DNA of 64,000 nt from Ischnura elegans (lineage: Eukaryota; Arthropoda; Insecta; Odonata; Coenagrionidae), in NCBI RefSeq assembly GCF_921293095.1, contig NC_060254.1, positions 3,162,001-3,226,000 on the forward strand, given 5' to 3'. This document shows, one piece after another, positions 3,134 through 60,600 of this stretch (its first letter is position 1; each line of letters opens with the position of its first letter). Made by a program: the position numbers and the translations under genes. The notes beneath the pieces are model-generated. The model had not been told where the DNA came from, searched no databases, and saw nothing but the letters and a program-made list of their open reading frames with translations.

Positions 3134-3154
3134 TTAACACTTTCAACGCGGCGG
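3134..3154 (+). repeat. piggyBac left end: TTAA target plus terminal inverted repeat
   Basis: TTAA at 3134-3137 is followed by CACTTTCAACGC. The right end at 6763-6778 reads GCGTTGAACGTG then TTAA, the inverted complement with one mismatch in twelve. TTAA target duplication and a CAC/CCC-type terminus are the signature of piggyBac-superfamily insertions. Confidence 0.8.
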
Positions 3155-3288
3155 TAATTTTTTTAAGTTTTGCCGGTGACTGAATTTTAATTCTTTGGTT
3201 TTAGATGGTTTTGGTCTCATTTTGAATAAATTGTTCATTGGTAGTTACGAAAAAAATTTTTTTTAATGAAAAATCGCAATTTCAAATT

Positions 3289-4457: not shown

Positions 4458-5675
4458 TCATGGAGAGGAATAACATTGAACATTTCTATGAAATGCTTCA
4501 AAGCATGGCTTCAAGCACAGGGGTGGGCATCCCTCACAGGCGGGGCAAAAATATGCCGTCTCCTTCCTGAACCCTCTAGACTTACAGAACGTGCAGCGTC
4601 GTTGAGGGACACGTTTTCGTTTTTGGTCGATGTCATGTGTCTCCGGAAAGTGCTTAGACAATCCAAGGACCCTGGAGGTTAGGCTGGGAGAGGAACGAGG
4701 AATAGGTTCGGAATATGACGGACTGATTTTGTAGAGTCGATCAGACGGTTGCGGCTCATCACGACCAGGATTACTCGCAAAATGCAGAGCTTGCATGATC
4801 GCGGTGAACCTGTCCCTGCTAATGCATTTCCTAAAGCAAGGATAATTGAAAAGGGGGTCTACACTCCAATAGTCGGATATTATACTCAATGGGCATGTGC
4901 CCATGTGGTAGAGAACCCCCAAAAACGTTAAAAATTCCACCGATGTGAGCGGCTTCCACTTCGTTATTCTTGCTCTGGGAAATACATTAGCAGAAATTAA
5001 AACGTCTGCTTGTCTATTTGTCTCCGTCACTATCAAGTCCACCATGTCATCTGTCATGAGGAGGTCAAAATACTTACGGGGATCGTGTCCTGAGTCTTGC
5101 GTATTGAGGCCAGGGGTGTCAGTGAAGGGGAATTGTGGGTGGGTTGGTCTTTTGTCCGTCCAAGTGTAAGTCTTTGTCGCAGTTCTCGTCGTAAGGGGAG
5201 GGGACTGAGAGCCTAGAGGGCCAGGAGAGGAAGGAGAAGCATATCTTGAGGGATCACCCACCCTACCTTCTTCTTCATCCTCCGAGGATCCCCACTCCGT
5301 TTCCCCGAAGGAGGAATCGTCGCTTTCTTCATCCATTGAAAGCAGTTCCGCCATCTCCTCTGCAGAAAGCACCCTCCCGAATCTTCTTTCTTCCTCCCTC
5401 CTCTTCCTTTTTGGGGGTGGAAATGACCGCGAGGCCGATGGCTGCGGACTTGGGGGACGAGAAGGGGTGTCAGGGGGCTGGCGGCTTTCACCAGAACTCG
5501 AAGGGCTGGGGTTACTGCTGGAGGTTGGAAGGGGAGGTTTTGAGGGGAGTTGGGTGGTTTTCTCAATAGACTGGCTTTTGACACCCCGCTTCCCTTTCTT
5601 CGGGACCCCTTTCCCCGGTAGTCCCTTTGCGGTCCATTCCTCCGTGTTACCTCCGCGTTTCCTTTCTGAAAACAA
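4458..5675 (-). CDS. piggyBac-like transposase lacking its catalytic core (about 405 aa)
   Basis: Residues 1-200 are basic, Ser/Pro-rich and then acidic, with a likely nuclear signal PKRKRREEERR at 88-98. Residues 205-317 match the N-terminal part of the DDE_Tnp_1_7 family: VTETN at 216, then a W-x-P-L-T-S-x-E-F-L-T-F-L-G region, DYWS, SRDRF and RLYKI at 313. The chain then jumps to the C-terminal cysteine-rich domain (361-396: CTFC, CPAC, CLKPC, H). The several hundred residues that normally follow RLYKI and carry the catalytic aspartates are absent, yet the frame is open. The first in-frame codon is TTG, and a good acceptor (TTGTTTTCAG) overlaps it, so translation probably starts in an upstream exon. 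A donor ATG|GTAAGT near 6534 is a candidate for that exon, but its phase does not join as a simple start. Confidence 0.7.
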   Translation of the reverse strand: MFSERKRGGNTEEWTAKGLPGKGVPKKGKRGVKSQSIEKTTQLPSKPPLPTSSSNPSPSSSGESRQPPDTPSRPPSPQPSASRSFPPPKRKRREEERRFGRVLSAEEMAELLSMDEESDDSSFGETEWGSSEDEEEGRVGDPSRYASPSSPGPLGSQSPPLTTRTATKTYTWTDKRPTHPQFPFTDTPGLNTQDSGHDPRKYFDLLMTDDMVDLIVTETNRQADVLISANVFPRARITKWKPLTSVEFLTFLGVLYHMGTCPLSIISDYWSVDPLFNYPCFRKCISRDRFTAIMQALHFASNPGRDEPQPSDRLYKISPSYSEPIPRSSPSLTSRVLGLSKHFPETHDIDQKRKRVPQRRCTFCKSRGFRKETAYFCPACEGCPPLCLKPCFEAFHRNVQCYSSP

Positions 5676-6690
5676 GAATGTTTACAAGTATGTGTTTATA
5701 TGAATGTATAACAAGAAAAAACATCGTATAGCAATGAAATAATTGAGTAATGTTTATGATATCACGTATCTTACTGCCAAAGAACTTGGATCGGAAGTTA
5801 TCAGGAAATATTTGTAAAATTTCGCTTCCACTTGTTTGCTATATACAGGAGAAAAAGAAACAATATCAGCAGACAAAATTGAAGCAAATCAATAATAGAA
5901 CTTTTATTAAAATTACAATAACAACAAGCGCAAATGATGATAAATATTTATCGAATGTCATAAAGGAAATATTCAAGTTACAAGTGACTGGAGTAAAATA
6001 CTGCAAATTATCACCTATTGAAGACAAACTAGTAAAAAAACGTAAAATATTTGCTAATAGCATATTCCTGGTAAAATTAAATGCAGCTATGTAATCACAT
6101 GGTCCGGAATGCATTGTAATGCTTAGCCTCAATCTAAACTAGAATAATGAGTATCTGTCCAAAACGAAAATTATTGTCACATAATGTAACAATTTCACTG
6201 AACAACGACTTTACTTCTCTGCTTTAAAATACAATTAAAAAACAACTTTACATTCACGAAGTTATTTTGTAAAAGAAATTTCAAAATTTTATCACAAGCG
6301 ATATATCTACAAAAAAAATTATAAAAAAATAAAAAAACACCGATGAAATCGTAATATGGGTACGAGGAGAATGCGGGGGTGAAAGGGGGGGGGGGAGGAA
6401 ATCTCAAATAAAAAAATGCAAAACTTTCAACTAATGATTTTTACCACATACGAAAGTTGTTTTACGTTAAAAATGGGTCGGTACACATTAAAACCACAAA
6501 AGGAGAGTGATAATTAACAAAAAAAAAGTGTAACTTACCATCGAAAAGAAACAGCTGTAGGAACCTTCCTGGGGATATGAATCGCTCCGGCTACTGGCGA
6601 TGCACTCGCTCTGAGGGCTAATGAACGACTGACAAGCGAAATGGAAGCGCTATGGGTCGGCGTCTCTCGTATATGGCCTTGGAAAGGGAG

Positions 6691-6778: not shown

Positions 6779-8104
6779 GCAACGTAAACAACAAAAACAA
6801 AAAATATTCAACAGTATTTACAAATAATAACAAAGAATTGTCATCAGGTGGTGCGAGGAATAGGGGGAAAATTACGATAGTGATGGTGCAAGTTGGGTGA
6901 GGGGTGAAAAAAAGGATCAAAATTTGGAACACATTTGGCATATGAGTTAATGGAAGAAGGAAGTCTGAATAGAAAAGAACGTTTAGAAACAGAAAGGCGG
7001 GGGGTGAAACAATGAAATAGGTCACTCGACCTCGTCGTGCGCGAAGGAACACGAAGCGGAAAAAAAGAAAGAAGGTCTGATGATCTGTATTTGCCATTAA
7101 TGATATTTAGAAAGAGTCTCCGGTCATTGAGGATACGGCGATCAGCTAAAGTAGAAATGCCAAGAGAGGATCTAATCTTATTGAGGGAGAAGTTACGAAA
7201 AGGCAAGTGGCGGTAGCGGACAACAGAAAGGAAAAAATTCAATGGACGTTCCAGGAGCTTTAATGAAGAAGGCGGGGCCGAAGACCAGATTTGGCTGCAG
7301 TATTCTAGGACCGGAGAGACACAGGAAAGGAAGAAGGTGCGTAGAGCAATTAAATCCAACACCTCACTATGGCGATACATCATACCCACCAAAGACATAG
7401 CGCGGGTGGAAATGGATTTAATGTGCTCACGAAAGAGCAGCTTAGAGTCAAAAATAACCCCTAAATCCTTCTGAGAGGTGACCGAAGGGATATGATGTCC
7501 AGATAATCGGTAATTTCTACTCAGGATAGACTTGCGTAGGGTGAATGGTAGACTTGGCTGGATTAATTTTCAGACTCCAAATCTCAGACCATTGGTCTAT
7601 GGCATCAAGAGCCTTCTGCAGAGCAAGGCAGTCATTCGGGGAATCAATCTGTTTAAAAATTTTGCAGTCATCTGCGTATAATAATATTTTGCAATTGGTG
7701 GAGGAGATAATGTCAACTAGATCATCTATGTATAATGCAAAAAGTAAAGGCCTGAGGACACTCCCTTGTGGAACTCCAGATGTAACCGGTGCCATCAAAG
7801 AACGCGACCCATTATTGTGTGTTGTTGCCGGTTCTGAAGGAAAGATGATAAGATAGAAAGAAAATTACCATGGACATTATACCGATTCTCTAATTTGAAG
7901 AGCAGTAATTGATGGTTAATTTTGTCAAAAGCTTTGGCAAAATCAATGTAGCATACATCCAGCTGTGATGAAGCCTCGAAAGCGTGAATGCAATATTTGT
8001 GCAAAATGGACAGATTTGTTACTGTAGATGATCCTGGAAGGAAACCATGCTGTTCGTCAGATATTAAGGGAAGAGAGAAAGACATTAAATAAAATTTAAA
8101 TAAT
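6779..8104 (-). mobile_element. jockey-like LINE, reverse transcriptase and C-terminal part, broken
   Basis: Minus-strand frames carry reverse transcriptase blocks in order. DEQHGFLPGSST and CYIDFAKAFDKINHQLLL lie in the upstream frame (7795-8085). SGVPQGSVLRPLLFALYIDD and the catalytic YADD box lie in the next (7517-7798). A C-terminal stretch LEYCSQIWSSAPP follows (6844-7398). The blocks are in different frames, so the ORF is frameshifted and dead. The 3' end is displaced to 3046-3133 by the piggyBac insertion. On the upstream side a PLE interrupts the LINE at 8105. A related 3' fragment on the plus strand is at 35440-35950. Confidence 0.8.
8091..8104. repeat. Target-site duplication of the PLE, left copy
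   Basis: AAAATTTAAATAAT here is repeated exactly at 9161-9174. The two copies bracket the PLE-derived segment at 8105-9160. The sequence is simple, which lowers certainty, but its position at both element edges fits a target duplication. Confidence 0.55.
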
Positions 8105-9160
8105 GTGACTACGTAGGTTTCCGCGGTGTTCAGGTTCCAATTTCTCCATGTTTCCGGTGCAACCGCGACGGTTTGTTGGTGATGACAACAGTTTCGCTGG
8201 CACTGCTGCCAGCGTCTTCAGGTCGAAGATGATGCCGGTCCACGATTTTTTTCCTCCTTATATAGGGGGTCAGTCCCGCCAGTTGTGGCTGCCGCTCTCT
8301 TATTGGTCCGCCTAATGAGCCTCCTCCAATGGGCATCCAGATGGTAGCCGTCGTCTCTGTTAAAATTGTCCGTCCGGGCTATCTCAATGGATTCGCGGAT
8401 GAGTCTGGGAAAATATCTGCCTTCTTTCACTATTATCTTGGCGTCGTCAAACTTAATGTCATGTCCCGGGTTCCAGGCGTGCTCGGATATGGCAGACAGC
8501 TGGAATATCCTGTTTTTCGTTGCCTTTCGGTGCTCTTGCATCCGTATCTTGAGTGAACGGCAAGTCTCACCGATGTACGCTTTTCCACACGAGCAAGGGA
8601 CCTTGTAAACACCTTCATGAAGGTCGTGCTGTAGTCTGTCTTTGGCTGTGGGCAGCAAGTCACCAATTTTTGTCGTACAGTTAAACCTGGTGGTGACGCC
8701 GTGCTTTTTCAGGGCCCTGGCAATCCTTTCCGTGGTCCCTGCGACGTAGGGAATGACGGCCCAAGCTCTTTCGTCTTCCGTTTTTTCACTTGAAAGTGGT
8801 TTTCTTTTAATGGTCCTTTTCAGGGCCGAATCCGGGTAGCCATTCTTTTTCAATGCTGCAATTAGATGTTTCTCTTCTTCTGCCAGTGACTCAGCATCTG
8901 AAAAGCGGTGGGCCCGGTGAAAAAGTGTATTTATCGAGGATGCCTTTTGCACAGGATAGTGGTGCGAGGCATAGTCTAGATACTGGTCCGTATGCGTGGC
9001 TTTCCGATATACAGAGTGCCCGAGGTGACCGTCACATGAATTCACATGAATTTTGTTCACATGAACTGAGCACAAAGTTCACATGAATTTTGAAATACCT
9101 AAATAACTTTGTCATCACCAACAAACCAACGCGGTTGCACCGGAAACATGGAGAAATTGG
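8105..9160 (-). mobile_element. 5'-truncated Penelope-like element with inverted terminal pieces
   Basis: It contains the GIY-YIG endonuclease ORF of a PLE on the minus strand (8218-9075) but no reverse transcriptase. Sequence at about 8147-8200 reappears in inverse orientation at about 9112-9160 (minus-strand text like CCGGAAACATGGAGAAATTG), which fits the pseudo-LTR arrangement known in PLEs. Next to the ORF end is a hammerhead-like motif (about 8175-8222, minus strand). The element splits a LINE and is flanked by a 14-bp direct repeat. Confidence 0.8.
8218..9075 (-). CDS. PLE protein, C-terminal part with GIY-YIG endonuclease
   Basis: About 285 residues are open. The N-terminal part (YRKATHTDQYLDYASHHYP, then an E-rich helix and NGYP) is the linker that follows the reverse transcriptase in PLE proteins. 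The GIY-YIG nuclease follows: GVYKVPCSCGKAYIGET, then the arginine and EH of LKIRMQEH, SEHAWNPGHDI, the glutamate in RESIEIA, and DGYHLDAHWRRL near the end. The nuclease would nick target DNA during retrotransposition. The true start is missing, since the upstream sequence is terminal-repeat DNA rather than reverse transcriptase. It is an inactive truncated copy, though the endonuclease frame is intact. Related but broken pieces are at 37611, 50655 and 60431. Confidence 0.85.
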   Translation of the reverse strand: MCSVHVNKIHVNSCDGHLGHSVYRKATHTDQYLDYASHHYPVQKASSINTLFHRAHRFSDAESLAEEEKHLIAALKKNGYPDSALKRTIKRKPLSSEKTEDERAWAVIPYVAGTTERIARALKKHGVTTRFNCTTKIGDLLPTAKDRLQHDLHEGVYKVPCSCGKAYIGETCRSLKIRMQEHRKATKNRIFQLSAISEHAWNPGHDIKFDDAKIIVKEGRYFPRLIRESIEIARTDNFNRDDGYHLDAHWRRLIRRTNKRAAATTGGTDPLYKEEKNRGPASSST

Positions 9161-24157: not shown

Positions 24158-26435
24158 CTGAAAAGGAGTTGAAAATCTTGAATGCACTGACTACTCATAT
24201 TGTCATCCATGATTTCCAATAGCATCATGGAAATCATGGGTCGTGTATGCCGCAAGTATATGGCAACAGCTTTAAGTCCATGATCACCCCTTCAACATCT
24301 TAACACATACAGGTTAGTCCATTTTTAAGGGCGTCTCACTCCCTATTCACCATTCTTCATTACTTTAGTAAATCTATCAGTTACATTCTGAAACGCTATG
24401 GGGTTGATTATTGTTAATAGTGATATTAATTTTCTTAATATTCACTCTCTCTCTTAGGGTATGTGGGATATGAAACTGAACTACCTATTAGTTTAATTAG
24501 GCAGAAAAAAATTAAGGCATTTCGTCTCACACTGTTGCCAAAATTGCTCCTAAAGCACCCTGAAAAACAAAGCCATTCCCCTTGAATACCTTTGACTCTC
24601 AGGGAAATTTATTACTGCTCTGCAGTGGACAACCCTGTTAATTCATTCATTTATAATAACCAGCCTGTAAGTACTCTATATGGTTAATTTTTTACAAGTT
24701 ATTTATAGAAAATAGAAGAAACTAAAGAAATAATGGTTGAGCAAATTTTGTCGTATAAACTAAAAAGGAGGATATAAACCAAACTTCCCCACATTTAAAA
24801 ATTAAAATTGAGTCGCTGCATATTCAAAACAAAAGGCATGATTTGCATCCACTTTACATGTGACACTGGGGTGATATAAATGCACTGGCACATATTTTAA
24901 TGGCAGCTTTGTAAAGGACATTCACAGGGAAAGAATGGTGATTTAAGGTGTTGAAATTGATGTGTAGTGTTTTTGTTTTGTTTTGAACATGCAATCATTA
25001 ATCTGTAAAATTTAAATGTTGAACCTTAGCAAGGCAGGATAGTGTATTTAAAGTTCAAATGAAAAAAGATAGTGTTTACAATGATTTTGTCACGTATTAA
25101 ATTAATTTTTTCTTATTGGAGATTAAAAATAGCAAAACCTAAAATGATTTAAGACAGGTGAAGATAGCTTGTAAAAAAGAAACAAATATGATGAAAAAGT
25201 AACGCCTTTTCCCGAACTAATTGAAAATCTTCTGTTCCCTTGCTAGTCTGTGCACTGCGGAGACTTATGTAGTTGAGAAGAGTTTTAATTGATGCTGCAG
25301 CTGAGCTGTTAATTCAAATATTAGATGTCGAAAGTGTTTTACATTATGGGGGGGGGGCACCAATCCTGCCTGGGGCTTTTAAGTTCAGGGGCAATGGAAT
25401 AACCCCTGTAACATGGGGAAGGGGGTTGCCTGGGACCCTCGTCTGGAAAATTTATTCAACTTAGCCTCTGAAAACAAAATTTGAAGTAAAAACAATACAA
25501 AAATGTTGTTAAACTTATTTCAACTTTTGATGTTTTCGTATGCACTGTACTTGAATGTACAGGTTTCGTGCTTTTTTCGGACAAATTTTAATAGGGTAAG
25601 GATGGTCGGAAGGTAGGGTCGGAAATTTTGAAATAGGGTAAGAATGCATTGTCACCCGGGTCTGGTGTGTACTGGAAATTTCAGTGAAGCAGTCAGATTA
25701 TCAGGATGTGAAATGAGTTCGATTTGCAAAGCGTTTCCCGGCAGAACGAACATATGGCAGTCACTCGGTGAAATCGTGATACATATGAAAAAGGAGAAAC
25801 TTAATGCTTTCACATGAACATTTATTCACACATAGGAGGAGGCTCCCCCTAACTCCTTTCTACCGCACGACCAAGTTCTTTCCCCTTCCCTCATCTCTGT
25901 TGACCGATCCGTTCAATCCCAATACCCTCCTCCCTCCCCCTCCAAGCCTAAAGGTGTAAATTGATTAAATGGACCTCTGTGGAGTTCACCTGATGATGAC
26001 GTCTTACGTTGAAACCGTGGTCGTGTAAATGTGTGAATAAATATATTCATGTGAAAGCACAAAGTTTCTTCTTTTTTTCATTTTTCGTAATGAATCGCTT
26101 TCACAAAGTTACGCCTCGAACAATCAATTTCAACAAAAAAAAAGGAGAAGTTACCTTTCGGAATCCGAAGTTCCGCTGGACGACCCTTCGCTCTCTCCCG
26201 AATCGGAATCGCTTTCCGAAGAGGACGTCGTCCCCTCCGATTCGAGGCAGCTGCCATCCGAGCCGTTGTCGTCCGACCACTCTTCCGCCTCCTCGTCCGT
26301 CGTCTGCGCCGCCTCCGGCTTCGCCTTGCGGTACTGCATCCACTTGGGCTTGGCCGGGTTCTCCGGCACGGGGGCCTCGGCTTTCGCCGCTACGCCCTTC
26401 TCAGCAGCAGCAGTCTTCGCTTTCGGCACCGGCAT
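23888..26435 (-). CDS. Acidic serine-rich small protein, two coding exons (183 aa)
   Basis: The coding parts are 26435-26155 and 24157-23888, with the stop completed at 23514. The start ATG at 26435 has an in-frame TAG three codons upstream. The N-terminus is basic (MPVPKAKTAAAEKG) with a PKWMQYRKAKPE segment near residue 30. From about residue 45 onward it is almost all Ser, Asp and Glu. A 16-residue unit (SSSSSSSNSELNSSWS) is repeated about three times, matching a 48-bp DNA tandem at 23940-24080. Such chains are disordered and often heavily phosphorylated, for example by casein kinase 2. That is inference; I do not recognise the protein. Splice sites are AG|GTAAC and CTTTTCAG|A, and the phase is exact. 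Confidence 0.65.
23940..24080. repeat. 48-bp coding tandem repeat, about three units
   Basis: The phrase CTGGAAGAAGACCAAGATGA recurs at 48-base spacing, with a first diverged unit. On the minus strand each unit adds 16 residues rich in Ser plus one Asn-Ser-Glu-Leu and one Trp. Near-identity of units suggests recent expansion and possible length polymorphism. Confidence 0.75.
24158..26154 (-). other. Intron of the serine-rich gene
   Basis: GT-AG intron of about 2.0 kb. It contains a G-rich repeat fragment near 25345-25450, like the ends of other short DNA elements in this window, and a PLE-type hammerhead-like motif at 25975-26045. Confidence 0.55.
25975..26045 (+). ncRNA. Hammerhead-ribozyme-like motif (PLE type)
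   Basis: In order: box CTGATGA at 25990-25996; one extra base; stem II of five pairs with loop CTT (25998-26002 with 26006-26010); box GAAA at 26011-26014; a very short stem III (14-16 with 19-21); and a GTC cleavage triplet ending at 26022. Stem I would pair CAC at 25987-25989 with GTG at 26023-26025, then weaken. Short stem III type I hammerheads are known from Penelope-like elements. The extra base after the first box is a departure from the consensus, so activity is uncertain. The following text GTGTAAATGTGTG matches a weaker copy at 46365. Confidence 0.5.
26155..26435 (-). CDS. Serine-rich gene, coding exon 1
   Basis: Starts at a true ATG (26435-26433) and ends ...SDSE plus AG at the donor AG|GTAAC. 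It is much more GC-rich than the intron. Length 281 bases leaves two bases for the next exon, which supplies A to complete AGA. Confidence 0.65.
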
Positions 26436-45606: not shown

Positions 45607-48600
45607 CTACGTTGCGGGAGATTGAGACAATTCAGAACACAATTCAGACGTTCGACGTAAAACTTCGTTCCAAGTATCTCATGCCTTTGACCCACACCCT
45701 ATTAGATCCTGATTTGAACCTTCATATCTACCGATGTCAACATTCATGCCATCAAAATTTGTTATAAATAATTGCAGGGTAAGACGTTTAAAGTACTTGG
45801 AAATTTCGCATCCATGTATAGTATTCATTCTACCACTTTATATAATATTTAGACATGTAACTTTTTGTTAACTATGGGGACGTTTTGGTTGAAGTGAATG
45901 TTACGACACACGGTTTACAAGCCTGAAAAAATTAACAGTGTCGTTGGGGAAGAAAAAAGATGCGCTCACCAACAAATCGAACTGTTTCAGCGGTAATTAT
46001 GTGAAATTAATGCATGAATGTGTTCCAGTGGCAAGAGAGACAATAGAAGAAGAGAAGTAGCTAATATTTATTGAATCGAGAGGGAATGTGAACAAAATCG
46101 GTTGTATAGAGTTTAAAAGATTGCATATATTCTCGTAAAATTGCACAAATGGTATTAATTTGGACAGCTTTTGTTCCAGTTGACCCCAGAAAGCTCTAGA
46201 TAACTTCCTTATTGGATTCCATTAAAAAGATGCAGTGTTCGGCGTGATACGGTGGAAATCTTTGATATTCAGCTTATTTAAACCACTTGTCTGTTTCCAC
46301 ACGCTTTTATTTAAACCGACCATGGTTTCGGCAACTCGTGCCATTTTCAAGTTGCCGAAACCATGGTCGATTTAAATAAAAGTGTGTGGAAACAGACAAG
46401 TGGTTTTACTATGCTGGATTCTATTCTTTGAGACTCGTCCAAAATAAGCGGCTGGCCATCTTTACCAGTGGTCCAATGTACCGGCAGCAACTGTACACAT
46501 TATTTGATTACCTGCGGCACCGTGAGGAACTTCCCCGCGTTGTTCGCCGCGAGGTCGCCCGTCCCGAAGAGCGCGTCGCCCGCCAGGCGTGGCGAGGCGT
46601 TGCCGCATCGCGATCTGGCCGAGCGGTTGTCCACGGACGCCCGCCTGAGGTTGTCCGGCGGCCTGACCAGCGGCCTCTGGACGGACTGCGTCGCCTGCGT
46701 GGTGGACGAGGCGGCCGAGTTGGGCAGAGGGGATGCTGGGTAATAGGCGCGGTCCAGCCATGGATCCTCCAGGTACTTGTACACCTCGGAGACCGGAGAT
46801 CGAGACTCGGGATCCGGGTCCAGGAGACGCCGCGCCAGTCTCAGGAACCGCGCGCTGTAGCGGCGGAACCTGGCTGGGATCTGAAAACAAAAAATATGCA
46901 AGGGTTCGGTTTCCTTCGCTTTGAGCTGGAAACGTTGGCTGGATAGAGATAGCCAGAAGGTCGCCTACATCATCGGTTAACTATCCTTACGTTGGTTCCC
47001 CTCAGCTCTCTTGCAAGATACTATTTTCACACTCATGTGGTAACCCCAAGCATAAATACCCCACCCAGTTGGTAGTGCATCTAAAAAATGGGTATTCATT
47101 CAAGCCAGATCGATTAGAGGACTCCTTTTTGAGTGGACCAAAGGAAAAAAGCTATTTACACCCAAACCCTCGACAAACCATAGTGGGTCCAGCAGGATGG
47201 CATGATGATTTGATGACAAGACTGTGACTAGATCATCGGAATTTCATCCATACCAATGCACTGAGAAGTAAAAAAACCTATTCGGGCGAGAGTCGTACAC
47301 GCTATCCCTGGAATAGCGTGTACGACTCTCCTCATGGGAGTTTCATGGAAATGACCACATTCGGAGAGTTTTTGGATTTAAAAATGAATCGCTCAATGAG
47401 CCATTCATTGCTCGTGATGGAAATGATTAGTTTCCTTGTAGAGGAGACCTTTAAGCGATCCCAGAGTCCTCAAGAAAGCTTTATGATTACTGACGAGGTT
47501 ATCGAGTACCTATTTCTCAGAAAGGTCATCCAGAGGACTCTCAGTTAGCCGTCACTTGCGCGCCGAAGGCAGTCTTTTATTGAAATTCCAAACAATGCCT
47601 CTCTATTTGGATAATTAATCTTGACGTCTAACGTCATGCCTGAAATTCATTCGTCGCCACTTTGGCCATTCAAAGGCATTGTATGGTATTTATAGGAGGC
47701 GACCAGCAGCTCAAGACATCAACGCCACTAGGGAATGGTAAGGTAGAGCGGAGAAAATCCAGGCGACCGCTTGCTCTTAACGAGAGGCTTGCACTTAACG
47801 TCCCATGCGACGGACGGAGGATTGAACCCTGGGGGCCGGTTTTATAATGCCTACTTAAGTTTTTTTTCGGAGCATAAAAATCAGAGTTAACGATATCTTC
47901 CACTTGGAGTCACCTGTTAAACTAACCGTTATCCTGAACTACTTTTCACAACTTTAACTTTAAAATACTTTTCAGTTAAGGTTACGACACTATTATATCA
48001 AGGGCGTACTCAGGATCAGAACTAGGGGGGGGGGGGGCAAGCCATGGTTGATCAAGTTAAAGTTAAGATTTAAGCATAGGAAAGGTGAATTAAACCAAAA
48101 TTTAAAGGAAACTGTAAAAGCTCTTATATAGTTTTCAAAAATTATTTGCTTGAAAAAATATTATCGTCCTTAAAGACATCCTTATTTCTGCTTCTAGGTG
48201 GGGGCAGCTGCCCCCTCCTGCCCCTCGCTGGGTACGCCCATGTATCATGTTCCGGTTAACGCGTACTAGACATTATAAATCCGGCCCTTAGTGTTCTCCA
48301 CTAAACACTCAAGCAGGGGTCCAGAGACTTCTAAAAAATCTCTACCACGGACGGAATTTGAACCTAGACCCAAAGTGTGGAAAGGAAACACCCTAGCCAA
48401 CACACCGATCACATCTCATATGTTGTTCAATGAATGGCGAAATTTTAACCTAATAAATCGATGATTCGTTACAGCTAGTGATATATTGGTCACAGGCAGG
48501 GTCTCAATATAGCAAGAATTTCACTCTGCAGGGATGGGGAAGAAGTGCAAGCTGTCGCGGCCAAACGTAGCTAGGATACGCAACAAAGAGACTAGCGAGA

Positions 48601-51600
48601 GTTTCGTTAAAGGTTTCCTTTGCTTTGACATTGCCAGTGGCGAAGCAAAGGAAACCTGCGACCTAAATTTGGCATGCCTCTTTGTTGCAGATCCCAGCCG
48701 GTTTCGGACGCTACGGCGCGCACGACTCCCATATCTATGCTCAGCGCTTCCAAAATAACGAGAATTTATAAGTTAAATCAATGCAACGGTAATCTTCAGG
48801 ACCTCTATATGACGAGAACATTACGATATTGGCGGCGATGATAGTTCTCAAATAACGAGAAATTGTCGTAGCGGGTGATACAGTGAGCGACACCAGCACT
48901 CGCTATTTCGAGTGAAAATGGCTAATTTCCACCCACCTTGGTAGTTCGCCTCCTCTGCCACCGGATGAATGAGCTGTACTCTGGGTCTGCTGGTTCGGCC
49001 ACGGACCACGGCTGCACCTCAAGTGGCGCCGGCGCGGCCGTAACGGAAGCACGGTGCTGCTGAAGAGCGGCGTTCCTCGGAACTGAGCCACGCCGACAGC
49101 CCTTGGTCGCCTCCGCTTTGTTATTGTTGTTGTTGCTGCTGCGATTGTTGCGGCTCCGTCGAGCCCACCACCACGACGAACCTCCGGGCGCGGCCGCTGG
49201 GGGCACCTCCGCTGCCTTTGTGGCGCCTGTATTCGCAGAAGGGAACAGTTTCAGTCATTGGTTCATTTGAGTCATTCATTTGAGTGAACATTTTAATGTG
49301 TGAGCTACCCAGCCAGAGCAAACGATTAGTTTAACCTCGTAACATTGTATGATTGCTTTTTTTTTCTTAAAAACTGCCTTTATTTTCTTCAAATTAAAGT
49401 TTTCTTTTTTGTCTCACTCCGTTAAGCCACTTTCCCTTTTCTCCTCAACAAATTCGCCTACCCTTCCATCAACAACTCCCTAACAACATTAAATAACGGT
49501 ATTTAAATATCAAACGTTACAATCAGAATTTATTTTCAATGAACTGGCCAACTAGCTGTTTGCATAAATGTAGAATTCTAAAGATGTGATGCGTGAAAAT
49601 CACAGCCACATGGCTCATGATCGGGTAAGCAATGCATAATGAGGTTTAAGTAAATTTCGCGTGTGCTTTGCGTAATCAAACACGTAGAGTCCACTGCAAC
49701 GCATGTATACCAAATATTGACGATTTAATTTAAATAACATGGCATAGAAAATGTCAATTTGCGTTCAGTCCACCTCCTGCAATATTTTTTTCGTGTAAAG
49801 AGACTCGGAAGATAACGAAAGTAAATTTAAAAAAATGGAGTCTGTTGGATCCGAGGTACTTCTGTTGATATCCACTAAGCTACCACGTAGACTAATGGAA
49901 CTGATTTTTTTACCTACACTAGCACATCGGTGATCCATCTCAAATATGATATTCATATGAAATGAAATGTGCCCTTATAATTGCATTGCGATACTTCTCG
50001 AGGACCTTTAGGTGAAATAGGCACTTACATTACACGCACGAGAGCTGCTGCCCTCTATTCGGGGGTGAGGAGAGGCATAACCGTTGGTGGCCTCTGGTTG
50101 CCAAGTCATGGCATGTTCATAGGTTTTCGTTTAAATGACCAGCCCTTTCACGAGAATGAACCAATGGTCCCTCAGGTAGACGCGCTATTTGTCCACGACT
50201 GCTTATCCGACGAGTAAACTCATTTATATCGCAGCTAACCCCTTTATCTGGAGGTTGATTCACCATCCCTGCAACCCGGTTGATGCACAAGGTGACTTTT
50301 AGCTTAGCAGAGAGCTACCATATGAAAATCCTTGTGTAGGTGTTCAACAGAATGGGGGACAGCATGCTGCCCTGCTGTACTCCAGCCTTTATGCGCCGAT
50401 TCCTGGGAACCGCCGGTCTCCATGCAACGTAGAATTCTCGGTGCTGGAGCCAGGAAGCAATGATACGGAGAATCCATCGCTTGTATCCGAATGTAGGTTT
50501 TCGCGGTGTGTAGGTATTGTGTAGGCTTTCGCGGTGTGGTGAGGATTCAGCGTTGAGGTTTTCGGGGTTACTACCGCGTAGATTCATCTCTGCAAACGAC
50601 AGGTCGACTCCAAGAACACCAAAGAGCCTCGAGTAACCAACAGCTGCGCCTCTCGGTCATAGCTGAGCACACATGGAGTGGGCCGAATCACAATCCCGAC
50701 TATGACAATGCAAGAGTCATTTCCGATGAAAAGAGATACTTCCCACGGATCATTGGGGAAGCTATAGAGATAATGAAGACACCGGACACCCTCAATAGGG
50801 AGGACGGATACCAGCACATCCCTAACACATTAACACATGGAGAAGAGTCCTCAAGAGTAAACCCGGAGAGACAGGACAGAGCCGGGAGGTGCCGACCAAT
50901 GAGAAGCCACCCGGGCCTCCTGAACCAGCCAATGAGAAGACACCGGCCTCCGACGGGGTCTGTAAGAGACGGGCGATACCGCGGATCTCCACTTTATTGA
51001 TCTGAAGAAGCCTGCTGCAATGCCGGCGAAACTCTCGTCTGCAGATATGAATCTACGCGGTAGTAACCCCGAAAAACTCAACGCTGAAAGAAAAAATATA
51101 CACACTGAAAATTTCAAGTTGGTAGGTAGTATTTTTTGAGCGTTTTTGAGCGTGCAGTTCGTCACTATAAAGCCCGATCCAATGAGGAGGTGTGTGTCCT
51201 ATCAAGGGAATATGGGCTGGAAAAACATTTCCCTCAACGTCCCACTCCGTATTTACTTGCACCTAAAGGGCGTCTAACCGTGAGCTTGAAGGCAAAAAAG
51301 AGTGCAAAATGAACTCAATTATGGCTTGCCGCAAGTCGGTGGCTCGATCATGTGACATTTTCGGAATATTTTTCGAAGGGGGCCATAATTTCGGGATCAA
51401 ATCCTGTCCAGCGTATTGAGGTCACAGTTTCCTCTTCCTCTCTGTAGTAGAGTGAAGTAGGGGCCATTCTTCGATTGGGCGCTATAGAGGGAGAATTTCA
51501 TTTTGTATGGACAACGCCAGGCCGTCGCTCTCAAAGCCGAAGTTCCATTTCCGAACGCCTTCATTAATTAGCGCGACCCGGAAAACAGTCGAGAACATTT

Positions 51601-54600: not shown

Positions 54601-57600
54601 TGATATAATTCAACCCTCAATTTTCTTTTTACCAAGCTAGTTCCTTCAGTTTCCCGATGCTTCTCCTTGTAACCTCTTTCATCTGCTACAAGTAGCTACT
54701 TATCTGTTGGTCTTACTTGAAGGAGTGAATTGTTAAATTGCTTCGAAGCATCATGTAAATTCTTATTTTGTAAACTTTTTGTCATCGATCAAATCTAAAT
54801 AAATGGAAACAATTCAGTTTGAAAACTGTCGATTTAATTTTTTGGGAAAATATTTCAAGGCAAAAATACAACAAAATGACGCGAAAGCATTATTGAGAGT
54901 GTTTTGCATTTTGTGATTTGCAGCGCCGCAGCTTCTAAGTTGCTATTGGCGGTTCCCCTTAGTATTAATAAAATCAGATAATTCGTCTGTCTTGCTTTCA
55001 TGGCGGAGGACTTTTTTCTATCACACTGAATGCATTTGACTAATTCTGCACATTGCCGGTTCGTTAGGAATGTGACAACGATCTCATAATTTTAACAAAT
55101 ACAAATGCTGTCAATTTTATGTCGCAGTCTCGATATAAATCGTTGCACTTAACACTGGGTGGTTCCGGATTCAAATTTGGGTATATCCAGAGGTGAAATT
55201 TTTACAGTTTCGTGCTACTCACGGCTTGTTGGTTACTTGTGGTTCTGGGTAGTAAACTTTAGTTAAGATCCCCTTACCTCAAATGCAAGATATTTAAATT
55301 GTCAACGGCTCAGGTGGTCTCTATAATTACTAGAGAAGTTATATTCACTTCACAATCAGGCTACCTGTTATGTTAAAATACACTGTTTAAATTTCATCAG
55401 GTTGTTAACAATGACATACATTTCCAAATAAATACTTTTTAGTTGCTAGTGAGTAGGAAATAACGCGTTAGTGACGATAATTTAGGCGGTTTTTTGTGTT
55501 AATTATCATATTCTAAGGGAATACAAATGCTTAACGACGTTCGCTTTTACATATTGGCGGCGTAGTTAGCCGCCTCTGCAGGTTAACGTTGCCATGATAA
55601 CTCGTCACTTATCGTCATCGTCACTCGTCATATATGGGTAGAGTCAAAATCGGGAACTCAGTTCTGCAATCGTGTTTACTGATATTGAAATCCTTGACAA
55701 ACGCCTTATAAGGACAAAGCGAATGGTAACCCACACACACATTCAACGGGGATTGAAACCATTAGAATCATATATGACATGAATTTTAATTCATAAAATT
55801 AAAACACTACCGGTGTGAATACCAATTAAATATTTTAATTTTCATTAAAATATTTTCGATACACGCTCAATAATGGCAGCTCAGGCTAATTTTTATTGTT
55901 TAAAAAAGAAAAGGAATGGATTCTTGCGATTCTTTTCTGATGGGAAACAAAATTTAACTTCGTTGAGGTAAAAAAAAACTAAAATTGTTTTTAGCAAAAA
56001 TCGTTACTTACATTCATTCGCCAAAGGATTCATTCGCATAAGGATTGCGTCCAGATTATTTCAAAAATGTCTCTTGTGCAGTAGTTTGGTCTTTGCCTTG
56101 ATGAATGAACGAACGAATGAATGAGTTAGTGGGGACACGTTGCTTTGAAGAATGCATTTACTTCTACGTCTACTAACTACTCCGCAAGACGCCTAAAAAG
56201 GAGTGTGGCAGGGGGTGTTAGGACACCAGCCGTTTATCTATATATATAAAAAGAAAATGCTCAAAACAAATAGCGATTAATATTTGTAGAAGTCCTTTAT
56301 GGTTCGGGGAAACGAATTTTCATATCTATCCGTTGTGCAAAATATCTCTCTTGTTCGCGAATTAAGTCTTTCTGCACCGGATCCCATACGCTCGCTGCAT
56401 ATTCAAGGTGCGGTCGGATGTGTGACAAATAGCACCTTTCTTTTACTCTCTCACCCGAAAATATTCCCACAAAACGCTTGACGGATCATAATTTCTTCAG
56501 GGCTATGCCACAAATATTCCTTATATGTCGTGGAAGGTTATTCGGGCATTCCACCGAGTCAGGTTTTCCCAGTCCATCTCGGCCGACTTTTCGACGAACG
56601 AGTTGTCCATGGTCATCAGGGCATCAACGGTGGACAACTCGTCCGTCGAAACGTCGGCCGAGATGGAGTAGGAGAACCTGACCCGGTGGAATACCCGAAG
56701 AACCTTCCACGATTCGATACGCCGGGAAAGCCTACGGTCATTCATTCCTTATACGTGTTCCCCATGAGAGGTTCGAGGTTATCGTATGTTTTGTTTCTTC
56801 GTCTGTTGCCTTTGTGTTACCCAATACCATCCATAGCATTAACAAGGTTATAGCTGGACGAATTCCGCAATAAATGTATCGCCTTGCATTTGCTCATATT
56901 AAGTTCGAGTACCCACTCTTGGCTCCACACACGAACGTTGTTTAAATCCGACGATATAAGTTCAAAGTCGGAGCGATTTCGCGGTGCAGTGGGTGTGTCT
57001 CACCTGCGGTAGGTGGCGCCGGTGGCGGAGGAGCGCTGGCGGCGGATGCGGCCGCGGCGGCGGCGGCGCTGGCGTTGGCTGCGGCGGCGAGAGTGGTGCA
57101 GATGAGCAGGCCCAGCTGGAAGGCGTCGGATGCGGGGCGGCACTCGTAGTGCTCGCGGTCGAGCGTGGCCCGCACCTCGGGCGGCACCCACGCCGACCAC
57201 GTGGTCCGCACCTTGGTCACCAGGGTGCCGGAGCGACGCGCGGAGCCCAGGTCGCAGATCTGTCGAAAGCAGGAGAGGAATTCGAGAAAGAGAAGAGGCA
57301 GGAATATCTGTTATCATCAGTGTTGGGGAAAATGTTATCGGGCTCAATCACGAGTATACCGCCAAATCTGTCATTAATTGCAATTAAAATCACTATTTGA
57401 AATGTGATCAATGGCAATGCAAGATGAAGAATAATTATGTCACGAAATTTTAACCCTGGATATTTACTTACAGTAGGGACCAAAATTCACAATGGATTCG
57501 AAACCCTAGGGCGGGCTCGCGGGGTTACTCTCCTAGGCCGAAGTCTGGAAGCGTTAGCTTATCACCTCTGCACCGCAGAAGGGGGAGGACAGAGCAGGAA

Positions 57601-60600
57601 AAAGGAAGGAGGCGCCGCACAGTGGGGCCAAACCCCACTTTAAGTGGACAAAAGTCCAAAAATGAAAGTTTGAAATGGGTTTTTTTTAATATAAGGTTGG
57701 GTAATAGGATGTTTGAACTGCAGAACAGTGTATTTTACGGGTTGGTATGTGTGCAACTTCGCGTAGAAATAAGTGTCAAAGTGAGAGAAAAGCGAAGCAC
57801 TGGTCCCGGAGTCGCAGACGCCTAAATGGACGGTCGATTTTAAACTATGATTACAGTACACTGGCCCCTTTGATTTTATTTTTTTAACTTGCAGTCAAAT
57901 GAAATAAGTATGGAAAATATAAATGTGCTTTTACTATCTATATTTTGGAGAAAAAATCCGTGGAGAAATTAATTATCATGAATGGAACGTCGTTGATTTT
58001 TCACAATGAAAAGTTTTATTTAATTAGAGAAAAGTTATATAATCGGACGGAATCGTAACGTGATTTTTAGATATATTATTAATTGAAGAATGAGCTAAAT
58101 AATGTAAAAGAAATCAACTGCCATCGAGTTGCAAAAGGAGTTTTATGATAAAAGATTAGCTATGCATGACAAGCCGAAAGGGATCCATCCGGCCGCTATG
58201 GCCGCATAGCAACGGGTAAACTATAATGTAAACAGTGCCCATTAAGATATTATTATTTTGTAATAAATCAAATTTGCATGCATTAGATATTTTGTCTACA
58301 CGTAGATACAAGCGGTGAAGTTTTCTACGCAAGGGCTGAGATTTTTGAAATGTAGAAATGCCATTCTCGAGGCTCCCACCATGTCGTGAATAAAGTGCTC
58401 GAAAAGGTTATTTCCGTTCAACTGAGGTGTACTTATTCGATTCCGGAATGCCAATTTAGTACTTTTTCACACTCTACGCGCAATAAACCATATTCTATTG
58501 TATTTTATTTTTGAAAGTTACAACTACCTCTTCAATGTAGTATTTTCTTTCTTTGTGTATTGGAAAATGGTACATGCAAACTTAAGATCAAATCTTTATT
58601 TTTCTATTAAGCATGAAGGTTTTTTCAAAGATATTGCTAAAATAATTTTGCAAATTTTATATCAGATTTTTTCTGACCACTAGGATTATTGACGTGAACT
58701 TTTATTTTTATTATTTCAAATTTTTATATATAATCTATTTTTACAACTAATCAAGTTACTTTTAACATTCTTAAAGTAATAAAATTGAAAAAAAAAAATC
58801 AAAAAATCGAAAATAATGAAAAATTAATATTGGATAACATTAAAGCGGTCTCTCAAAACATGTATACGTATATTTTTGGGTTGTTAGTAAAGTGTTTGAC
58901 TTTTGTCGTCTAAAGTAGGGCTTGGCCCCACTGTGCGACGCTGCGATAGGAGCCCGACGACGCGATGCCTCCTGGGATAGGATAGGGAAGGAAGGGGAAT
59001 CCCGCACCGTCACAGAAGCGGGCGGGTCCTACTACTAGCGAAACCATAATTTAATGTTTCTACAAAAAAGAAAGATTTAATTATGATGAAAGAAAATCCT
59101 ACGATTTTTCGTAGATAACCAAAATGGAAATTTATGTTTAGGTTGAATACTCATCACATTTAAACTACAGAAATTTTAAGCCAAGCGCTCCGATTTTACC
59201 CTTTTGCAGAATGCTCTGGACAAAGTCAAAGGCAAAGCATTCGAAGTCGTGAGTTATCGAGAGCATCCCGAATTAGGGAAAACTCGCGGAAAATCGAAGC
59301 GCTGGGAGTAAAACTTCTGCAGTTTAAATGTGATGAGTATTCAACCTAAACATAATTGATAATTTTGGCTCATACTGGTTTCAGCTATCCAAGGTTAAAA
59401 TTTCGAGAAAATTTTTCTACATCCTGTGCAGGACCCATTGATGGATTCATTAGAAGATCCAGCACATCTCCGGATGTGGTCATTTTCATTCGGAAATGCA
59501 GGATAACCAGTGGCGATGACTCCATGGGGCCTGAGCCCCCTCAAAAATTCGTTATGGGGGTGGGAGGAAAAATGTGTCAGGCTTGTCGATTTTCCTCGGA
59601 ATGCCCAGATATCGAGATTCGAGTCATCAGGGTTCTAATGTTGATCATATGGCTCTTCTAAAATGCTTAAAAAACTTAAAATTCACTACTTATAAAATTT
59701 CCCGGGGCAAGATCCCCGGTTTGGGCCCCCCAATATTTTTTGCAAGTCGGCATCCCTGAGTATAACCGCCCTATAGTGGTGTGAACCACTTGCGACTCAC
59801 CTTAACGAGCGATAGGTCCGCGGCGAAGACGAGAACGTTCTCTAGTTTGAGGTCTCTATGGACGACTCCCGCGTCGTGCATGAATGAGAGCGCCGAGGCC
59901 AGCTGCTTGGCGGCCCTCTTGACGGACGCTTCGGGCGACCCGCCCTCTGCAGACAGACCGATGGAGGCCACTGATGGTCGGCCGCGGATCACGCCTGGCG
60001 ACGCTCCGTTCACGGCGCCACCGCGGCGCCACAGCGGCGCCTTGCACCTGTTAAGGGGAAAGCATTACGTGCCAAAGGAAATGCGACGGGATTGGGTTGG
60101 TGTGGTGGCTTGAATGTTTGCTTCCCACCCAGTGGGATAAGTGACTGCGTAGGTTTCCGCGGTGTCGAGGTTCCATAATCTCCATTCTTCTGGTGCTCCC
60201 GCGTCTGGTTGTTTCTTGATGACCGCAGTTTCGCTAGCACTGCTGCTAGCGTCTTCAGGTCGAAGATGCCGGTCACGATTTTTGTCCTCGTTAGATAGGG
60301 GCTCATTCCCGCCAGTTGTGGCTGCTGCTCCTCATTGGTCCGTTTGAATTAGTCTCCTCCAATTGACATCCAAGTGGTATCCATCGTCCGTATTAAAAGT
60401 GTCAGTCCTGGCTATTTCAATTGCATTGCAACTTTTAATACAGACGATGGATACCACTTGGATGCCAATTGGAGGAGACTAATTCAAACGGACCAATGAA
60501 GAGCAGCAGTCACAACTGGCGGGAATGAGACCCTATCCAACGAGGACAAAAATCGTGGACCGGAATCTTCGACCTGAAGACGCTAGCAGCAGTGCTAGCG

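Follow-up and report, generated by a model that had tools for sequence, protein, structure and literature searches.

Does the 64,000-nucleotide stretch of the Ischnura elegans genome examined here (NC_060254.1, positions 3,162,001 to 3,226,000; the whole of it is called the window below) carry a ribozyme within the remains of a mobile element, and, if so, to what kind of element does it belong? The question is raised by a short motif at 25987-26025 on the plus strand, which the initial annotation had read as a hammerhead-like ribozyme in a terminal fragment of a Penelope-like element (PLE) lying inside an intron. A hammerhead ribozyme near the ends of PLEs is a kind of structure that is already known. 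We consider it highly probable that the motif is a minimal type I PLE hammerhead, situated in the 3' untranslated region/pseudo-long terminal repeat (3'UTR/pLTR) of a 5'-truncated copy, that this copy came to lie just within a putative host intron, probably through target-primed reverse transcription, and that cleavage of this form would take place in a dimer.

Layout of the motif

Read directly, the plus strand gives CAC-CTGATGA-T-GACGT-CTT-ACGTT-GAAACC-GT-GGTC-GTG, in which the hammerhead core CUGANGA...GAAA...U-H is present in order and three helices can be drawn, with three pairs in stem I, five in stem II and three in stem III, and a single base separating A9 from stem II. Stem II consists of four Watson-Crick pairs and one G-U pair, and stem III joins 26014-26016 to 26019-26021 around a loop of two bases. 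The succession originally proposed (CTGATGA, a five-pair stem II, GAAA, a three-pair stem III with a two-base loop, and GTC) is borne out by this reading, which adds the three-pair stem I to it.

The motif is genuine and not a product of chance. A descriptor comprising the box, zero or one extra base, a stem II of at least five pairs, GAAA, a stem III of at least two pairs and a T followed by A, C or T was run on both strands and matched four places in the window (25990 and 60574 on the plus strand, 60258 and 8221 on the minus strand), each with exactly one extra base. By comparison, eight matches in total resulted when the whole window was shuffled 400 times with its dinucleotides preserved. 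A three-pair stem I accompanies none of these eight, and among the four real places it is seen only at 25990. In IMG/VR, 13 stretches of viral contigs matched the boxes by letters alone, with at most three consecutive stem II pairs each, and no relatives of the PLE were found there; a phage collection returned only four weak matches covering less than 10% of the query.

Conservation among genomic copies

A search of the 1.72-Gb genome with the stretch 25780-26080 recovered at least 82 matches (40 scored of 1291 first-look candidates). The repeat family of the window copy, termed family 1 here, is therefore a high-copy dispersed repeat. Forty loci were fetched for the 82 matches, and the blast pieces from them that exceeded 150 nt were aligned as 43 copies, three of which are opposite-strand partners of another copy; 12 of the 55 pieces, covering 150 nt or less of the query, were dropped. 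The complete core and all five stem II pairs are kept in 26 of the 43 copies. Stem I reads CAC in 42 and GTG in 36 of them, and the stem III 8-mer reads ACCATGGT, a fully self-complementary sequence, in 24. Minority letters make up 2.5% of the core and stem columns, 10% of the ribozyme loops and 7.2% of the other columns. Random sets of non-CpG columns were as low as the core alone in 372 of 20000 draws, and when the core-and-stem mask was rotated, only one of 225 placements was equally low.

Hammerheads of two other PLE groups, families 2 and 3, also lie in the window (Table 1), and the layout recurs in them with different stem II letters. Family 2 is very abundant, with at least 137 genomic matches (136 scored of 17210 first-look candidates), in the vicinity of which six short stretches were sampled; one further copy search obtained loci for 30 of 47 matches. 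In a lineage that is 62% identical, stem II reads GCCGA/UCGGC and an extra C is present in two copies (L090 and L092), while a third (L091) is without the 3' half of the ribozyme. Across a set of ten sequences, stem II shows changes on both sides at five of six pairs, with 88% of the cells pairing. For the structure as a whole the covariation score was 0.461, a value equaled in none of 500 shuffles; the number of double-change pairs was reached in seven of the 500 and the number of pair types in 25, and all covariation scores fall when the partner is slid by one to three columns. The other helices contribute less, since the stem III pairs are nearly invariant, with the third pair unpaired in five of nine sequences, and stem I is weak, with 63% of its cells paired.

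The extra base between A9 and stem II

The initial annotation had noted an extra base between the CTGANGA box and stem II in all the better copies of the window and had suggested that it may be a trait of the lineage rather than decay. The first part of this statement stands for 25997 and for the copies at 8221(-), 60258(-) and 60574(+), to which 51002(+) can be added; it fails at 46330, where there is no CTGANGA box at all. The second part is supported by the genomic copies. In family 1 the position is filled in 43 of 43 copies (T in 41, C in two, no gap). In family 2 an extra C is present in all 24 counted copies, that is, those among 36 that read with the exact box, spacing and GAAA; the other 12 were left uncounted, and the rows of L055 were omitted as representing the same places as those of L054. 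In family 3 the base is A in 15 and C in one of 16 fetched copies, which were taken from 50 matches and read with one mismatch each allowed in the box and in GAAA. Every PLE family examined here with an intact box thus has one extra base at this place. Family 1 has U, family 2 has C and most family 3 copies have A, so that the presence of this base looks like a lineage feature and not like decay.

A precedent exists in the plus-strand hammerhead of chrysanthemum chlorotic mottle viroid (CChMVd), which has an extra A at the same place; changing this A10 to U raised trans-cleavage three- to fourfold, and changing it to C or G was harmful (PMC3705267). With the balance tilting slightly against it, we tentatively suggest that this genome's PLE hammerheads constitute a core subtype of their own that is invisible to Rfam, with an obligatory extra base nearly fixed within each family (U, C or A). 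This base may tune cleavage, which would proceed only in dimers or with a PLE protein and would cut tandem transcripts to the length of one open reading frame (ORF). If this is true, the extra base may act on cleavage as U does in the viroid.

Linkage to Penelope-like elements

The assignment to a PLE-type terminal fragment is supported by longer copies in which the terminal part of a PLE ORF precedes the motif. Three family 1 copies (L006, L012 and L017) extend upstream into sequence that reads as such an end, and by hand count about 140-155 nt separate the ORF stop from the ribozyme in L017 and L006. The family 2 protein fragment encoded at 8218-9078 (P0001) matches L012 in a tblastn comparison (E 3.5e-9, residues 24-190, 24% identity) and L006 (E 8e-5); it has no tblastn match in L017, whose DNA is colinear with that of L006. 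When the L012 place was fetched again with more flank (L084), the tblastn E values were 1.8e-9 and 6e-10. The region covered in family 1 corresponds to the linker and the endonuclease-like end (amino acids 24-190 of P0001), and the reverse transcriptase was not seen in it. Among 20 family 1 loci (L001-L020), only L019 has two ribozymes on the same strand (at 133 and 1645, plus strand), 1.5 kb apart; no match to a PLE protein was found between them, and the pair is possibly a decayed partial tandem.

Family 2 presents a fuller picture. It is partly tandem with a unit of 2501 bp, and one array has, between its ribozymes at C2:18466197 and C2:18463696, an 810-amino-acid ORF (counted from the ATG) with a Pfam reverse transcriptase domain (RVT_1, E 1.2e-14); Pfam recognized no GIY-YIG domain in the whole ORF at E up to 0.1. 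The family 2 stop codon falls within the CUGA box (8218-8221, minus strand), so the end of the ORF and the ribozyme overlap, and the next ATG follows 72 nt after C3.

The structure of the window copy itself shows hallmarks of PLEs, namely 5' truncation, inverted partial copies and a target duplication. An exact 11-base repeat flanks the element; examined for the window copy only, it was matched as well by four of 3000 random pairs of stretches at the same spacing. The element begins with an inverted partial copy of its own 3' tail, related to 26032-26076 with 80% identity over 45 nt, and this arm (query positions 6-54) also aligns, in opposite orientation, with the tails of other copies. Among family 1 copies the 5' starts are variable and the 3' ends are shared: of 19 other loci, 11 have matches that end at 26075-26092, and eight, which carry an optional 3' extension, have matches that end at 26122-26137. 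Opposite-strand pieces occur in 13 of the 40 loci and cover different parts of the element. By eye, none of their breakpoints coincides with the cleavage site, and the window arm begins 6-7 nt past it. At the junction between arm and body (25834-25846) one reads GGAGGAGGCTCC; this is GGAGCCTCCTCC of the element itself in reverse complement, and template switching at a short palindrome is therefore suggested.

The intronic location is likewise supported as probable. An exon-like ORF of the minus strand runs up to a GT donor, which is five bases away from the right repeat. The window copy therefore appears to lie just within an intron of a host gene, where its ribozyme would be antisense to that gene's transcript. 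With no partner nearby and antisense to a putative host gene, the window copy is most likely a silent relic.

Folding, proposed mechanism and contrary evidence

Hairpin loops need at least three bases under the usual energy rules; hence a three-pair stem III with a two-base loop is unable to close in a monomer. The picture changes in predicted dimers, where the hammerhead fold of the window copy reaches -13.8 kcal/mol as compared with +0.2 kcal/mol as a monomer. For the first eight other copies with intact boxes, the dimeric hammerhead fold is predicted at -17.6 in five and at -8.2 to -15.6 in three, and the best dimer folds, at -20.0 to -36.7, are lower than the hammerhead folds. The modeled energies agree with the proposal in the literature that dimers may be the acting form of minimal PLE hammerheads (PMC7761336), and make activity of the window copy as a monomer doubtful. 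A PLE ribozyme can also require the protein of its own element (PMC11167929). We therefore envisage, as a proposal, that two neighboring ribozymes in a tandem transcript would pair through the self-complementary stem III segment (of the ACCAUGGU type) to form a double hammerhead, possibly with the aid of the element's protein. Cleavage would then occur after C17, and such cuts in tandem arrays would free RNA of unit length that holds a single complete ORF. The window copy, for its part, was probably placed by target-primed reverse transcription.

Several results weigh against this reading. In 17 of the 43 family 1 copies a base of the core or a pair of stem II has been lost, and the 8-mer pairs fully (A15.1-U16.1, with G-U counted) in only 31. 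The 3' ends of the copies are found elsewhere than at the cleavage site. As a monomer, the window copy in the hammerhead fold, in which stem III keeps two pairs, stands at the +0.2 kcal/mol given above against -7.6 for the best other fold, and the predicted probability of stem II is 0.04-0.10; even the dimer has a better fold that is not a hammerhead (-21.3 versus -13.8 kcal/mol). The link between family 1 and a PLE consists of tblastn alignments, the longest spanning 177 positions with stops; the 124-amino-acid ORF end of L086 gave neither a Pfam match nor a blastp match to the family 2 protein, and no ORF-bearing tandem of family 1 was seen among L001-L020. The ten sequences used for covariation include L107, which belongs to the family of the 46280-46406 palindrome and has no canonical box, and L007, whose 3' alignment is poor, and some rows are close relatives, so that there are fewer events than cells.

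The same holds for the covariance models of Rfam, which the initial annotation had named as a check. Its hammerhead families gave no match in the window or in 25940-26080 at E up to 10, and a genome-wide search with RF00163 was empty, but its 14 controls were equally silent. Rfam also misses the clearer PLE hammerhead at 60574, and for this reason it is apparently blind to this form of the ribozyme; one extra base together with a nearly absent stem III is the cause that we suggest. A covariance model built from four other window copies only, three of them from one family and with rough calibration, finds 25983-26030 with E = 0.014 in 64 kb (15.2 bits).

Alternative explanations

The most serious rival is a conserved PLE end without catalysis, in which the stem-loop is kept for protein binding, for priming or merely through recent descent, and self-cleavage is now irrelevant. 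We hold this to be unlikely, though far from negligible. It would account for the absence of a predicted hammerhead monomer fold and for the copies with damage in the core or stem II (17 of 43), and it finds an echo in a study in which PLE ribozyme mutants left in vitro insertion unchanged and the cut site coincided with neither the start nor the end of any read (PMC11167929). It sits poorly with the catalytic letters, which are common to the families while stem II covaries, and with the lower variability of the core and stems relative to loops and flanks. A chance likeness to the hammerhead consensus, which could appeal to the missing Rfam match, is next to impossible given four real places versus eight matches in 400 shuffled windows, the 43 copies and the other PLE families with the same layout; the genomic copies and the covariation refute it.

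Two further accounts accept the repeat and assign it to a different kind of element. A retrozyme-like unit, that is, a non-autonomous short tandem repeat with a canonical type I hammerhead mobilized by PLEs, is very unlikely. The element is indeed non-coding, short and hammerhead-bearing, and retrozymes and PLEs co-occur (PMC7229834), but the window copy is solitary instead of a short tandem repeat, it lacks a stable stem III, and longer copies are colinear with the end of a PLE ORF. An animal retrozyme was rejected on these grounds, the solitary state of the copy and its lack of a stable stem III. Extremely unlikely, too, is a miniature inverted-repeat transposable element (MITE) of a DNA transposon, with terminal inverted repeats at 25788-25832 and 26032-26076 and the ribozyme boxes incidental. 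Its inverted arms of 45 nt are 80% alike; against this, the 5' ends of the copies vary while their 3' ends are shared, opposite-strand pieces are confined to the 13 of 40 loci and to different parts, longer copies run on into the PLE ORF, and head-to-head inverted ends have been described for Penelope itself (PMC3846280). Constant terminal inverted repeats were not found, and the MITE was rejected. The hammerhead of a truncated PLE end remains the reading that we prefer.

A kinship closer at hand had been proposed with the palindrome at 46280-46406, whose end the flank of the motif was said to match. This idea was dropped: beyond the shared GAAACC-TGGTCG core, 284 of 1000 shuffles match the flank equally well. 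The palindrome constitutes a separate high-copy foldback family with at least 80 matches (40 scored of 1219 first-look candidates). It carries GAAACCATGGTC on both arms together with a non-canonical box, CTTGATAAT or similar; the 46330 copy reads CTTGAAAAT in place of the CTGANGA box, and none of the 17 stretches taken as relatives for the 80 matches has that box. A weak Rfam match to mir-977 (46313-46372) lies inside the palindrome.

Coordinates and further features of the window

Table 1. Features of the window discussed in the text, numbered from its first letter
Feature	Position	Strand	Basis or remark
Left target-site duplication candidate AAAAAGGAGAA	25788-25798		Exact 11-base repeat of 26139-26149
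Inverted partial copy of own 3' tail at 5' end of element	25799-25833	-	Inverted repeat with 26032-26076
5'-truncated PLE 3' end (3'UTR/pLTR), homology to other copies from 25843	25834-26138	+	Copy comparisons
Stem I, 5' strand CAC	25987-25989	+	Three pairs with 26023-26025; direct reading
CUGAUGA core box (C3-A9), DNA CTGATGA	25990-25996	+	Reading and copy alignment
Extra base U between A9 and stem II	25997	+	43-copy alignment
Stem II, 25998-26002 with 26006-26010, three-base loop	25998-26010	+	Reading; compensatory changes across PLE families
GAAA (G12-A15.1)	26011-26014	+	Reading and copy alignment
Stem III 8-mer ACCGUGGU	26014-26021	+	43-copy alignment
Predicted cleavage, C17 (26022) / 26023	26022-26023	+	Inferred from hammerhead consensus
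Right target-site duplication candidate AAAAAGGAGAA	26139-26149		Exact repeat of left copy
Putative host 5' splice site GAAAG/GTAAC	26150-26159	-	Exon-like ORF upstream on minus strand
PLE hammerhead, family 2; CTGA holds ORF stop codon	8184-8221	-	Reading, ORF comparison
C-terminal part of family 2 PLE ORF (GIY-YIG end), P0001	8218-9078	-	Pfam GIY-YIG E 0.0025, below cut-off
PLE hammerhead, family 3 (extra A)	51002-51039	+	Reading, fetched copies
PLE hammerhead, family 2	60221-60258	-	Reading
PLE hammerhead, family 2	60574-60611	+	Reading

The family 2 copy at 60574 leaves the sequence shared by its family two bases past the predicted cleavage site (60611-60613, plus strand). This is a single case, and the other family 2 rows compared with it share sequence beyond that point. 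The copies at 60221-60258 and 60574-60611 form a long palindrome of two head-to-head inverted family 2 ends (60221-60611), inside which a weak Rfam match to MIR2587 (60368-60463) is found. A further hammerhead-like element was seen at 3150-3198 (plus strand) of the family 1 locus L018; its box is CAGAAGA, an extra T is present, stem III is ACGU without a loop, and the whole comes near a fully minimal form. At 56527-56713 there is a strong hairpin with a match to MIR918 (E 1.5e-14, 91 bits versus a gathering score of 268) that resembles another inverted repeat. Two minus-strand ORFs, at 4458-5681 and 6844-8217, presumably encode a piggyBac-type DNA-transposon transposase and a non-LTR reverse transcriptase, respectively.

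Relation to known systems

Minimal type I hammerheads of PLEs were reportedly described by Cervera and de la Pena in 2014 and by Lunse, Weinberg and Breaker in 2017. Although PLE hammerheads are known, their role is unsettled. The many copies present here, in several families and in part arranged in tandem with intact ORFs, offer natural material bearing on the use of cleavage into unit-length RNA.

The window copy resembles the minimal PLE hammerheads, as presented in PMC6155905, PMC7761336 and PMC7229834, in its type I form, its tiny or absent stem III, its place in the PLE end repeat, the expected action as a dimer and the many dispersed copies. A possible difference is the one base inserted after A9. 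The Anolis element PAc is likewise a PLE with a pLTR hammerhead, whose in vitro cleavage needed the element's protein. Its ORF starts at stem II (PMC11167929), whereas in family 2 the stop codon falls in the CUGA box with the next ATG 72 nt on, and in family 1 the ribozyme follows the ORF stop by about 140-155 nt. In its insertion structure the window copy is closest to the Penelope copies of Adineta vaga, which also display an inverted partial pLTR at the 5' end, an optional 3' tail and 5' truncation. The target duplication there is 8-10 bp as opposed to 11 bp here, the optional tail differs, being about 50 bp here, and the accessible part of that account mentions no ribozyme (PMC3846280). 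Finally, the plus-strand hammerhead of CChMVd shares one extra base at exactly this place; that ribozyme belongs to a viroid and carries A10 (PMC3705267), whereas the extra base in the PLE families of Ischnura elegans is U, C or A according to the family.

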